From the NCBI GenBank assembly GCA_903882745.1, contig CAIRYG010000005.1:62001-126000 (forward strand): a stretch of 64,000 nt of DNA. The letters are read 5' to 3'. This stretch comes from an uncultured Gemmatimonadota bacterium. Its GTDB lineage: Bacteria; Gemmatimonadota; Gemmatimonadetes; Gemmatimonadales; Gemmatimonadaceae. Positions 4,526-8,643 of the stretch are shown here, one piece after another. The notes under the pieces are model-generated. The model was not told the DNA's origin. It ran no database searches and was given only the letters and a program-made list of their open reading frames with translations. The position numbers were made by a program, and so were the translations under genes. Each line of letters starts with the position of its first letter. The stretch's first letter is position 1.

Positions 4526-6145
4526 TTACTTGAGACGGCCAGGCGCTGATGGTGCAGCGGTGGACGCGGCGAGCGCGAGCAGCTCCTTGGTGGTCTTGCC
4601 GCGTCGCAAGAGATCCAACGCCTTCTGCAACTGGGGATCATCGTGCAGGTCACGGCGCTTGGCCGTGCTGTCACCCCACGCGAGCGTCGCGATCTTCCCG
4701 TCGAGCAGACGGTCGATGTACTTGATGCCCGCATCGAACTCCTTGCGGTCCACGGTCACGCCACGCTTGGCGAGACGCGCGTAGAACTCATCACGCATCG
4801 CCGGTGTAATCGCGAAATCGGGCTTCACCTGCTTGCTCATCTCGAACGAGTAGTCGTAGAGCGCCAGGTAGGTCTCCTGCTGCTTGGAGAGCATTGAGCG
4901 CGCCAACTTCTGCTCGGCGGTCGTAAAGGTGTCGTACGGCACGATGACGTCCGGCGTGATGGCGCCGCCACCGTAGACCACGCGACCGCCGTCGCTCTTG
5001 TACTTGGGGCGATTCTGGCGCACCGCTTCGGTCTCGAGCGAATCTGGCTTCACTTCGACGAGCTGACCGTCGTCGGTGAGCTTGCGTTCTTTTTGGATGC
5101 TGCGACCGCTCGGGGTGTACCACTTGGCGGTCGTGAGCTTGATCGCAAAACCACCATCGAGGCGGTACATGGACTGCACGAGTCCCTTGCCGAACGAGGT
5201 GGTGCCGACGACCAGCGCGCGATCGTGATCCTGCAACGCGCCCGCGACGATTTCAGAGGCAGATGCCGAATAGCCGTCGGTGAGAATCACGAGCGGAATC
5301 TTCGGCGCAATCGGGGTCATGTCCGTTACGTGGACCTGCGGCGGCTCGCCGCGACCGCGCACACTCAGAATCTCTTTTCCCTTCTCAACAAAGAGGTTGG
5401 TCATCGTGTCGGCCTGCTCGAGGAACCCACCAGGATTCCCACGCAGGTCGAGCACGAGACTCGTCGCGCCTTCGGCGACTAGTCGTTTGAGATTGTCGGT
5501 GACTTCCTTGGCCGCAGTCTCGCTGAAGCCCTGCACAGGGATGTAGGCCGTCTTCCCGTCGAGCATGATCGCGTACGGCACGGCCGGAATGCGAATCACG
5601 CGCCGCGTGAAGGTGACGGCAAACGGTTCCGTGGTGCCAGGACGCACAAAGGTCGCGCCGATCTTGGTACCCGGCTCACCCTTCAACCGTCCGGAGACCA
5701 TCTCGATTTTCCACGAGGCGGTGATCCGTGCGGTGTCGATCTTTACAATCCGATCGCCGACGCGAATCCCTGCTTCGTCGGCTGGTGTGTGCGGAAACAC
5801 TTTGGCGATCACGATCGTGCCTTCCTGCTGCTCGATCTGCATACCGACGCCGGCGTAGAACCCGCCCGTCGTCTGATTGAACGCCTCAAGCTGCTTGGGC
5901 GAATAGATCTCGGCGTACGGATCCTTGAGCTCTGCCACGAGCCCGCGGGCGGCCTTCTCGTACAGCGAGCCAATGTCGACCGAGTCGACATAGCGATCGC
6001 TGACGATGGCCATCACCTGTTCAAACAGGCGCACACCACTCTGCGCACCGCGCTCTTGGACCACGAACGCGCCGGCAATGAGCGGAATGAACGCGAGCCC
6101 AATCAGGGCTGCCTTTGGGAGTCTACGCATCGAGATCCGAGTCAC
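4526..6145 (-). CDS. S41 family carboxy-terminal processing protease (CtpA/Prc type)
   Basis: This 539-residue protease has an N-terminal membrane anchor or signal (residues 11-28), a tail-specific protease N-terminal helical region, a PDZ domain (about 95-175, starting at GGFYAGVGMQIE), and the S41 core. The catalytic pair is visible: Ser295 in GYSASASEI and Lys320 in TSFGKG, 25 residues apart as in Prc. LDLRGNPGGFLEQA is the conserved substrate-cradle strand. Members cleave the C termini of periplasmic proteins. A long C-terminal helical extension rich in charged residues follows the core. The propeller protein downstream may be a partner. Confidence 0.92.
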   Translation of the reverse strand: MTRISMRRLPKAALIGLAFIPLIAGAFVVQERGAQSGVRLFEQVMAIVSDRYVDSVDIGSLYEKAARGLVAELKDPYAEIYSPKQLEAFNQTTGGFYAGVGMQIEQQEGTIVIAKVFPHTPADEAGIRVGDRIVKIDTARITASWKIEMVSGRLKGEPGTKIGATFVRPGTTEPFAVTFTRRVIRIPAVPYAIMLDGKTAYIPVQGFSETAAKEVTDNLKRLVAEGATSLVLDLRGNPGGFLEQADTMTNLFVEKGKEILSVRGRGEPPQVHVTDMTPIAPKIPLVILTDGYSASASEIVAGALQDHDRALVVGTTSFGKGLVQSMYRLDGGFAIKLTTAKWYTPSGRSIQKERKLTDDGQLVEVKPDSLETEAVRQNRPKYKSDGGRVVYGGGAITPDVIVPYDTFTTAEQKLARSMLSKQQETYLALYDYSFEMSKQVKPDFAITPAMRDEFYARLAKRGVTVDRKEFDAGIKYIDRLLDGKIATLAWGDSTAKRRDLHDDPQLQKALDLLRRGKTTKELLALAASTAAPSAPGRLK

Positions 6146-6269
6146 TCTTGAGAGGAAGAGGGAGAATACCTAGTCCGTACGCCTGTCGCCACGGCGAGTT
6201 TCGTGCCATCGGGCACTCCGTAACTTTACGTAACTGGCCCAACTCTATACGCGACAACGGGATAGATCG

Positions 6270-7115
6270 TTAGGTGGCTTTTTGCCCGAGGCGATAGCTG
6301 ACCACCCAGTGCTTCCCGTCCTGCTCGATGACTGCCTCGCGGGCTGCGCCCGAGGTCACGAGCATCTCGTGGGCGGGCTGGAGCACACGCTGGAGGTGGG
6401 ACGGAAATCGCTGAACCAAGGGGAGTTGTTCGGCGAGTTGCTCGAGTCCCACGCGCCAGGTGGTGTGCCCCTCGGCGCGGGCTACGGCGAGCAACCGGTA
6501 GAGGCGCCGTGCGACCGGACTGTTGAGCGACCAGTACTGCGACGACAACAGGGTGATACTCCAGCCCGCGGCGATGTTCGCGCGGAGTGGGGCGGCGATG
6601 GTCACACGTGCGTCGCCCGATTCGTTGCTCGTCAGCAGCGGAAAGAGCCCGAGTTGGTCGCGATCGGTCATGCGCCGCCGGTCGATCTGCACGAGCGCGA
6701 GCACGGCCATCTGGCCCGAAAAGAGCGGGCCCGCGGAGCCTTCTCGATAGCAGTCGGTGGATTCGAGCAGGGTACGTTCGAGACGGGTGAGCGCCGAGCG
6801 CAGTTGCTCGTAGGTGCGTCCGTCCACGCGCCGTCCCATGGCACGGAGAAAGGCATGGAGCGTGAAGGTGACGGTGCCATCGGCGGGCGCGCCCGCTTCG
6901 TGATAGCGGCGCATCAACTCGACGTAGACATCCTGATCGAAGGTGCCCGGCAGTCGTTCGCCTGGGGCAGGGAGCACGCGCCAGCGACCGCCCGAGGGGG
7001 GCGACCAGGTGATGACCGTCTCTTCGGCGGAGTCGCTGAGCCGGAAGATAGGAAGCGCCTCAAGGGAGCGGTCGAGCACGATGGTGCGCGAAGGCTGCTT
7101 GCGGCGCGTCGCCAT
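6270..7115 (-). CDS. RepA-like replication initiator protein (plasmid-type, RPA family)
   Basis: The 281-residue product matches what I know of the replication initiator protein A family: an N-terminal winged-helix region with GTFDQDVYVELMRRYHE, a TYEQLRSALTRLERT segment, then LGLFPLLTSNES, and a second winged-helix region with SPVARRLYRLLAVARAEG. These proteins normally open iteron-type plasmid origins. The gene follows the MerR-like gene by 73 bp and looks cotranscribed. No iterons were found nearby, so on this chromosome it may have become a regulator or an accessory initiator. The family call is by recognition, without a database search. Confidence 0.65.
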   Translation of the reverse strand: MATRRKQPSRTIVLDRSLEALPIFRLSDSAEETVITWSPPSGGRWRVLPAPGERLPGTFDQDVYVELMRRYHEAGAPADGTVTFTLHAFLRAMGRRVDGRTYEQLRSALTRLERTLLESTDCYREGSAGPLFSGQMAVLALVQIDRRRMTDRDQLGLFPLLTSNESGDARVTIAAPLRANIAAGWSITLLSSQYWSLNSPVARRLYRLLAVARAEGHTTWRVGLEQLAEQLPLVQRFPSHLQRVLQPAHEMLVTSGAAREAVIEQDGKHWVVSYRLGQKAT

Positions 7116-7188
7116 TAGCCGCGGTGGGTGACGCGCGGACTCCGCCGTTGGCTCGGGGTGTTACCCGCGCGCTGGGTGGTCTGCGCGA

Positions 7189-7734
7189 TCATCGCAGCTC
7201 CTCGCGACCGAGTGCCGCGCGTACGGCTTCGCGAATGGCGATGATCACGGCGTCGCGTGCGGCGGGGGAATCGTCGCGCACGTTGAGTTCAATCCCATCG
7301 GCCACGGGGAGTCGGCGCCAGCTCACGGGTTTGTCGTCGTCGTGCGCCACGGCGCGATCGCTGCCGGCACCGAGTGCGGGGGCGAGCGCTTGGGCAACGC
7401 GGCGCTCGAGTTGATCGCCGGTGACGTCAATCATCTCCGCTTTGATGGCGTCGAGCGTTTGGCCTTCGCGCTGACGAATCTTGATGCCGAGCAACTGCAG
7501 GAGATGGCGATAGTGATACGTCGCCGCTGTGCCTTTGCCTTCGGGATGATCGATCAGTCCGGCTGCGACGTAAAAACGCACCGCGCGTGCACTTGGCGTC
7601 GCGCGCGCCGACGCGTTGGTGGGCCGCATGCCGGCGGCGTCAACGAGTGCCGTGGCATGCGAGGCGAGTCCGCGTGCGTTCCATGGAGCGTGGCGCGCGT
7701 GGGCGCGCAAAAGTGCAACAGAAGACTCAGCCAT
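7189..7734 (-). CDS. MerR-type DNA-binding regulator upstream of repA-like gene
   Basis: Within 181 residues a MerR winged helix is visible around residues 45-95: ARAVRFYVAAGLI, the wing with YHYRHLLQLLGIK, and LDAIKAEM. The C-terminal 75 residues are unlike metal-sensing MerR proteins: there are no cysteines, and the segment looks like a dimerisation or ligand domain of unknown type. The gene precedes the RepA-like gene in the same direction and probably controls it. The ATG lies only four bases past a TTATTGTAT sequence that could be a -10 region, so the message may be nearly leaderless. Confidence 0.7.
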   Translation of the reverse strand: MAESSVALLRAHARHAPWNARGLASHATALVDAAGMRPTNASARATPSARAVRFYVAAGLIDHPEGKGTAATYHYRHLLQLLGIKIRQREGQTLDAIKAEMIDVTGDQLERRVAQALAPALGAGSDRAVAHDDDKPVSWRRLPVADGIELNVRDDSPAARDAVIIAIREAVRAALGREELR

Positions 7735-7819
7735 CCCGATACAATAACTCCGGCGGAGCGAAACTTCGAGAACGGGGCGGACGGGGGCGCGGTCGGGCAG
7801 GTCACAACAGCAGGTAACA

Positions 7820-7853
7820 ACGGGGGGTACGCGATGGTTCGCGCACCCCCCGT
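7820..7853 (-). terminator. hairpin terminator after the histone-like gene
   Basis: A 9-bp perfect stem (ACGGGGGGT with its complement) is extended by four further CGCG pairs past one mismatch, with a 6-nt loop. It begins about 40 bp beyond the stop of the Lys-rich protein gene on the minus strand and is followed by a moderately T-rich stretch. Confidence 0.6.
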
Positions 7854-7890
7854 TCTCCCAAACGGCCGGGGCCGAGGGAGGGAATGTCGG

Positions 7891-8643
7891 TTACTTCTTG
7901 GCCTTCGCGGCCTTTTTCACGACCTTCGCGACCTTCTTGGCTGGCTTCGCCGGCTTCTTAGCGGCTTTGACCGGCTTTTTGGCGGCCTTGACCGGCTTCT
8001 TAGCGGCCTTGACCGGCTTGGCGGCTTTCTTGGCGGCTTTTACGGGCTTCTTTGCGGCGACCTTTGCCGGCTTCTTGGCTGGGGCCTTGGCAGAAGCCTT
8101 GGCAGAAGCCTTGGCAGCAGCCTTGGCAGCAGCCTTGGCAGCAGCCTTGGTAGCAGCCTTCGCGGGCTTGGCCGGCTTCTTGGCGGCCTTCACAGGGGCG
8201 GCTTTGGCCGGAGCCTTGGCCGCGGCCTTCGGAGCAGCCTTTGGAGCGGCCTTTGGAGCGGCCTTTAAAGCAGCCTTCGGGGCAGCCACCGGTGCTTCGA
8301 CGGGGGCGTCTACCGGTGCTTCCTCTGGTGCATCCGTCTCCGAGGCGGGCTTGCGACCGCGCTTCCGCGGGGCGCTCAGCCCACCACCGAACAGATCCGA
8401 GTCGTCCTCGTCGTCCACGACGCCGGCGTCCGGCGCGAGTTCGCCCGGAACGCTCTCTTCGTCGTCGTCGTCCGACTCCTCGGTGCTATCCCACAGCGAG
8501 TCGCTCTGGTCCTTGTTGATCGACCAGCCGCCGTCCTCGTCCTCTTCGTCGTCGTAGGGAATCCCGCCGCCGCTGTAGCCGCCGAGTTCCTCGCCGTCGT
8601 CGTCGCCGTAGCCGCCAGCGGCCATTGCATCGCCGAAACTCAT
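7891..8643 (-). CDS. histone H1-like Lys/Ala/Pro-rich nucleoid protein with acidic N-terminal domain
   Basis: The 250-residue protein is bipartite. Residues 1-90 are strongly acidic (runs such as DDEEDEDG and ESDDDDEE). Residues from about 93 contain an AT-hook-like core RKRGRKP, followed by about 130 residues of AAPKAAPKA and KKPVKAA repeats like the C-terminal tails of histone H1 and chlamydial HC1/HC2. The tail should neutralise DNA charge and compact the nucleoid; the acidic head could bind the tail or recruit partners. The start is supported by a good AGGAGG site six bases upstream and by a consensus promoter. The codon repeats make the gene prone to length change. Confidence 0.8.
   Translation of the reverse strand: MSFGDAMAAGGYGDDDGEELGGYSGGGIPYDDEEDEDGGWSINKDQSDSLWDSTEESDDDDEESVPGELAPDAGVVDDEDDSDLFGGGLSAPRKRGRKPASETDAPEEAPVDAPVEAPVAAPKAALKAAPKAAPKAAPKAAAKAPAKAAPVKAAKKPAKPAKAATKAAAKAAAKAAAKASAKASAKAPAKKPAKVAAKKPVKAAKKAAKPVKAAKKPVKAAKKPVKAAKKPAKPAKKVAKVVKKAAKAKK

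Follow-up and report, generated by a model that had tools for sequence, protein, structure and literature searches.

A plasmid-type replication initiator homologue conserved on the chromosome of Gemmatimonadaceae

Introduction

Nearly all sampled genomes of the bacterial family Gemmatimonadaceae carry a chromosomal gene of the RPA family (PF10134), homologous to the replication initiators of plasmids. Its product probably helps to control the copying of the chromosome, or genes tied to that copying. The best-supported reading, to which we assign a probability of about 0.5, is that RPA is a domesticated DNA-binding protein linked to replication. Computed for RPA were its family, its predicted fold, its restriction to one clade, the selection acting on it, its missing C-terminus, the lack of iterons, a sequence motif and its usual location near dnaA.

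The gene came to notice in a window of 64,000 nucleotides from an uncultured Gemmatimonadota bacterium (contig CAIRYG010000005.1). An earlier note, made from those letters alone, offered three explanations for it: a relic of plasmid integration, an accessory chromosomal origin system, or an initiator fold reused as a regulator. The third fits the results best; the first two fare worse, for reasons given below.

In the model that we propose, the stem lineage of the family would have acquired a plasmid initiator on a single occasion and domesticated it. Both DNA-reading winged helices would have been kept, whereas the C-terminal half and the iterons of the plasmid relatives would have gone. An exposed loop carries a motif of the beta-clamp-binding type that lacks a counterpart at that place in the plasmid proteins. 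RPA would read one fixed chromosomal sequence and be coupled to replication through the clamp. It would thereby act as a replication-linked regulator of initiation or of replication-timed expression, and not as a plasmid-type starter at its own gene. Possible roles include modulating initiation, marking replicated DNA, setting replication-timed expression and starting a second origin. A more specific version holds that the captured plasmid initiator, stripped and fitted with its motif, became a family-wide replication control factor near the origin, either a clamp-dependent regulator of DnaA initiation or the starter of a second origin. This version we hold tentatively, at a little under even odds. 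The combination of a conserved DNA-reading helix with a clamp motif lends itself to direct tests of how mobile elements can supply the components of replication control.

Results

The locus is chromosomal and its initiator homologue belongs to PF10134

A Pfam profile search gave the 281-residue protein 71.4 bits for RPA, against a cut-off of 27; the search might have placed it in another family, as the earlier note had considered, and instead named RPA. All 16 aligned family members match PF10134 at E 0.01 or better. Other collections had less to say about the protein: NCBIfam assigned it no family, its PHROGs matches were weak (E 0.0041 and 0.006), and a PDB sequence search found nothing below E 0.07. 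The MerR-type gene lies directly upstream, 73 nt away on the same minus strand, and its product scores 25.4 bits for MerR_1 (PF13411), barely above the cut-off of 21.6. The coordinates of these features are collected in Table 1.

Table 1. Features of the RPA locus, in window coordinates
Feature	Position	Strand	Remarks
S41 C-terminal processing peptidase	4526..6145	-	PF03572, 160 bits; constant downstream neighbour
RPA-S41 gap	6146..6269	-	124 nt
RPA-family (PF10134) initiator homologue	6270..7115	-	281 aa; two winged helices predicted
Helix 238-255, putative recognition helix of second winged helix	6351..6404	-	in the most conserved segment
QLGLF, residues 154-158, beta-clamp-binding-type motif	6642..6656	-	low-confidence loop
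Helix 99-114, putative recognition helix of first winged helix	6774..6821	-	assignment inferred from fold
MerR-type DNA-binding protein	7189..7734	-	181 aa; neighbour, no obligate partner

The surroundings are those of an ordinary chromosomal gene: Pfam identifies the flanking genes as encoding an HD-domain protein, a PD40-propeller protein, the S41 peptidase and an AcrB-type pump. The earlier description of an initiator among chromosomal genes with a MerR-like gene next to it and neither partition genes nor iterons in sight proved accurate. No partition protein occurs among the Pfam-scanned neighbours, and positions 5900-7890 hold no iteron array, only four families of two-copy repeats. The open reading frame at 7891-8643 has no Pfam match; it encodes an acidic N-terminus followed by a Lys/Ala/Pro-rich tail like that of histone H1.

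The genome of the window has one RPA copy, and its assembly places dnaA (contig C3) and RPA on separate contigs. In the single-contig relatives G019, G039, G073 and G128 the two genes share one molecule, and the RPA locus is therefore chromosomal, judged by synteny with them. That the contig might be a plasmid, a possibility that the earlier note had raised, is ruled out by the same closed relatives.

RPA is confined to one family and usually lies near dnaA

A profile search of 298 genomes sampled from the phylum found PF10134 in 94, with 93 above the cut-off. All 94 belong to the family of the window, Gemmatimonadaceae, of which 103 genomes were sampled; the other 195 genomes had none. Among named genomes, the best 80 of 143 relatives are labelled Gemmatimonadota, Gemmatimonadaceae, Gemmatimonas or unspecified bacteria. 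In six of the nine family genomes without RPA, dnaA and dnaN are absent as well, which suggests that binning missed the origin region. The other three (G168, G028 and G205) have only distant S41 matches, at 34-38% identity, which indicates that the whole locus, or its assembly, is missing.

Two side observations concern these genomes. Nine family genomes have neither dnaA nor dnaN despite completeness scores above 90% (G091, G123, G129, G201, G222, G248, G024, G174 and G210), likely by loss of the origin region in binning. Five genomes (G244, G026, G190, G252 and G082) have two or three PF10134 matches each, some in long frames; these are possibly plasmid copies, paralogues or gene fragments.

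Among the matches listed, 17 genomes have dnaA and RPA on one contig, a set in which short draft contigs favour short distances. The two genes are 66-295 kb apart in 16 of the 17; the exception is G079, where RPA lies 681 kb from dnaA on its other side. Across the four genomes that consist of a single contig (3.3-5.2 Mb), the spacing of dnaA and RPA ranges from 76 to 295 kb. The two genes are on opposite strands in all of the 17 genomes except G244 and G079, hence in 15.

The gene is under purifying selection

Our locus set comprises 100 RPA loci, 97 of them distinct; the three duplicates are included in the counts of PSHLQR ends, omega, ECF elements, alignment conservation and iterons. Median omega is 0.069 for RPA (170 pairs), compared with 0.109 for S41 (128 pairs) and 0.124 for MerR (68 pairs), the pairs overlapping. 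RPA is under purifying selection. The matched RPA stretches contain no stops, and RPA and S41 identities correlate (0.81 over 92 loci).

The first of the earlier explanations, a functionless relic of plasmid integration, has in its favour that plasmid relatives exist. It founders on the presence of RPA in 94 of 103 family genomes, the open matched stretches, the low omega and the conserved position. We consider it ruled out, its probability being close to nil.

RPA probably descends from a plasmid initiator and lacks the C-terminus and iterons of its plasmid relatives

A sequence search recovered 12 plasmid relatives at 24-30% identity, from Deinococcus, Rubrobacter (five) and Allomeiothermus; no phage relative appeared at E 0.01. 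A tree was built from 29 of the 100 loci and nine plasmid proteins, trimmed to the two winged helices. All 29 family members form one side of a branch whose support is 100/100. The family stem measures 3.26 changes per site, the median end branch 0.23. The identity of the nearest plasmids is uncertain, because three plasmid rows are long, the joins of two with the family drew warnings, and five deviate in composition. In our preferred reading, RPA derives from an initiator of iteron plasmids similar to the Rubrobacter and Deinococcus megaplasmids. Uptake would have happened most likely once, in the stem of Gemmatimonadaceae, followed by domestication.

Nine of the 12 plasmid relatives were fetched, including four of the five from Rubrobacter. 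Their proteins have 463-499 residues, and 7-10 iteron copies stand upstream of the gene in all nine, where shuffled sequences gave 1-3. The chromosomal proteins lack the C-terminal stretch of about 190 residues found in these nine and stop soon after the second winged helix: in 94 of 100 loci they end 39-53 residues past the sequence PSHLQR, and the other six have a variant of PSHLQR and end likewise. In all four Rubrobacter proteins the C-terminus resembles DnaA_N (DnaA domain I), at 20.4-26.0 bits with one above the cut-off of 24.6. DnaA_N matched none of the five Deinococcus/Allomeiothermus plasmid proteins scanned and, at E 0.01, none of the 16 family members. Because RepE and Pi are initiators that have no C-terminal domain of this type, its loss does not disprove initiator function in RPA.

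At least five iteron-like copies occur in the 600 nt upstream of RPA in only four of 96 loci. When up to 1.5 kb upstream is considered, arrays of at least four copies are found at 28 loci; 22 of these arrays fall within coding repeats rich in Lys/Ala/Pro/Val, and six are of other kinds. One further iteron-like array, in locus L050, lies inside the RPA gene.

The predicted fold is that of known initiators

The AF2 model of RPA predicts two winged helices with a mean pLDDT of 87. VIA-align matched it to RepE of the F plasmid with Z 17.2 (8ac8; 205 residues, 14% identity) and 16.8 (1rep), to RctB with Z 15.6 and to Pi of R6K with Z 15.0 (2nra; 10% identity). Foldseek ranked RctB first (E 2.9e-9) and RepE next; TrfA matched weakly (E 0.1), a rank that excludes nothing. 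In its predicted fold RPA matches RepE, Pi and RctB, and a protein so folded would be expected to bind DNA.

Conservation is concentrated in a few segments. Helix 99-114 averages 0.89, against 0.75 for the whole protein. Residues 235-252, assigned to the second recognition helix, are the most conserved (0.98), and the top three 16-residue windows begin at 235-237; residues 51-66 come second (0.96). A second reading helix that is nearly invariant would imply a fixed DNA target, and we infer that RPA binds one fixed chromosomal sequence. In a search for that target across seven genomes, every 9-mer fell short of the enrichment threshold in at least three of them.

A loop carries an invariant clamp-type motif

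The loop ahead of the second winged helix is exposed in the model, with pLDDT below 50 at residues 148-155 and 159-162 and over most of the motif segment. The form Q[LF]x[LF]F occupies residues 154-158 in all 97 distinct loci, and the strict form QLxLF in 78. Q154 and F158 are invariant and L157 is 97% conserved. The motif is part of a longer one, RRRxxDRxQ[LF]x[LF]F, in which R146-R148 are invariant and R152 is 98% conserved. At the equivalent place none of the nine plasmid relatives has a clamp-type motif, though QPSLF occurs towards the C-terminus of the plasmid protein L265, and the less strict QVDIF at another position in L264. QLxLF was present in nine of 1435 sampled genes, three of which were RPA, and in no gene of the window other than RPA.

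QLxLF is described as the beta-clamp consensus (PMC4549789), and in TrfA a clamp motif is reported to be required for replication from oriV (PMC4980987). A motif of five residues is by itself weak evidence of binding; by its sequence, RPA may bind the beta clamp.

S41, and not MerR, is the constant neighbour

Comparison of the locus across the family bears on the earlier claim that RPA and the MerR-type gene are paired. All 84 distinct loci with enough downstream sequence have an S41 peptidase gene no more than 3 kb downstream of RPA and on its strand, the gap exceeding 700 nt in two of them. The MerR-type gene lies within 400 bp on the same strand in 20 of the 78 distinct loci with enough upstream sequence, as it does in the window. 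In another 25 it lies within 3.5 kb, in three it is farther away, and in 30 it is not in the fetched range. Its annotation goes no further than MerR_1, yet it is widely conserved and mostly single-copy, being present in 92 of 103 family genomes. Two sister families have it too, in 54 genomes that yielded no RPA, mostly at 45-59% identity (two cases are weak). MerR and S41 matches are non-adjacent in 12 sister-family genomes.

The adjacency counts, the MerR genes of the sister families and the 84 of 84 loci with S41 mean that the pair is local and that RPA-S41 is the constant linkage. We reject RPA and MerR as a unit; that they form one functional pair is very improbable, despite their adjacency on one strand at some loci.

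A GGAAC-N17-CGTA element stands before S41 in 62 of 92 loci (59 of 89 distinct), where 0.4 would be expected. We take it to be ECF-like by its consensus, suggesting control of the S41 protease by an ECF sigma factor across the family. The window's own gap (locus L036) has no match to it, and it precedes RPA in none of 100 loci.

These data bear on the possibility that RPA is a plain transcription factor, whose winged helices regulate its own gene or S41 while the QLxLF-like loop serves another job. The constant position of RPA before S41 would suit such a role, and relatives of initiators can turn into regulators, as archaeal Orc1-2 is reported to have done (PMC9738581). However, S41 has its own ECF-like element in most loci, and visual inspection of 97 RPA upstream regions revealed no operator common to the family. 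The invariant clamp-type motif would also be left unexplained. We consider a plain transcription factor unlikely. The domesticated, replication-linked protein that we favour would have a regulatory role as well, one tied to replication.

Nucleotide skew and DnaA boxes around dnaA and RPA

The remaining alternative is that RPA is an accessory chromosomal initiator, which would open another origin, located at its own gene or close by, and load the clamp or the helicase there, as TrfA does on RK2. Its full initiator fold, with RctB as the top Foldseek match, would fit this, as would the clamp motif, since an initiator such as TrfA has one too. We computed third-position, strand-corrected skew for seven genomes with RPA and for two controls without it (Table 2).

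Table 2. Third-position, strand-corrected skew around dnaA and RPA (in controls the interval was set at 0-80 kb)
Genome	Left of dnaA	dnaA-RPA interval	Right of RPA	Remarks
G004	-0.066	0.025	0.069	
G010	-0.078	0.038	0.035	
G155	-0.048	0.008	0.018	
G040	-0.097	0.096	0.128	
G128	-0.091	-0.013	0.073	
G039	-0.103	0.033	0.104	
G073	-0.077	0.012	0.068	
G013	-0.073	0.047	0.139	RPA-less control
G198	-0.017	-0.041	0.005	RPA-less control

The interval has intermediate skew in most of the seven genomes (G128, G039, G073, G004 and G155). This is what two origins would give, but the RPA-less control G013 shows the same rise; in the other control, G198, the skew switches about 115 kb from dnaA. G010 has no step in skew at RPA and G040 little. 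In G039 and G073 it is at dnaA that whole-base skew switches sign. In G128 the cumulative minimum, at 51 kb, falls away from dnaA (1 kb), between it and RPA (77 kb). Among the matches listed, no cluster of DnaA boxes occurs at the RPA loci of G039, G073 and G128; in G073 one perfect box lies ~0.4 kb past the RPA gene. As 92 of 96 loci also have no more than four iteron-like copies upstream, we regard a second origin started by RPA at or near its own gene as rather improbable.

Contig G128:C1 has sites like DnaA boxes in two 200-nt stretches, at 18.6 and 20.7 kb, whose AT content is the highest in 260 kb; these stretches are a candidate oriC about 20 kb from dnaA.

Discussion

Plasmid initiators run secondary chromosomes, and RctB, the initiator of Vibrio chromosome 2, serves one of these. 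RPA resembles RctB in fold; unlike RctB, it sits on the dnaA-bearing molecule in closed genomes. Among the matches listed in the open-licence literature, judged by title and the start of the abstract, we found no report of a main chromosome bearing dnaA on which a plasmid initiator has become a fixed, single-copy core gene.

One close comparison is with the RepA/TrfA-type initiators encoded by plasmids of Rubrobacter, Deinococcus and Allomeiothermus, in which, as in RPA, the PF10134 domain spans two winged helices. The chromosomal protein differs from these in its shorter length, in the almost constant absence of iterons and in the presence of the clamp-type motif. RepE and Pi likewise share the two winged helices; unlike them, chromosomal RPA has no iteron array next to its gene. 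TrfA of RK2 is a winged-helix initiator with a clamp-binding motif, like RPA, but its motif lies elsewhere in the chain, at L137/F138 (PMC4980987), whereas that of RPA is at residues 154-158. Orc1-2, the archaeal precedent for an initiator relative as a regulator, is an AAA+ protein of a family unrelated to RPA (PMC9738581). For chromosome II and the megaplasmid of Deinococcus radiodurans, PMC7671480 describes 8-11 iterons of 18 bp, and its authors report no known initiator there. These iteron origins belong to secondary replicons of a genus that has PF10134 plasmid relatives, whereas the RPA locus has no iterons.

Some minor features of the intergenic DNA were also seen. A small open reading frame of similar sequence (about MATKLEKT..REIEIDGE) lies between RPA and S41 in L043, L049, L052, L091 and L124, which represent several genera. 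In about a dozen loci of one subgroup, a promoter-like CTTGCCyG-N-ACATT and a partial inverted repeat stand just before the RPA start (the former upstream of RPA in L040, L041, L042, L083, L102, L109, L110, L114, L120, L134 and L135). Finally, intergenic samples of G010, G155, G040 and others are enriched, in some genomes, in TTAGTTGCAACTAA-like palindrome words and in GCCTAACG words.
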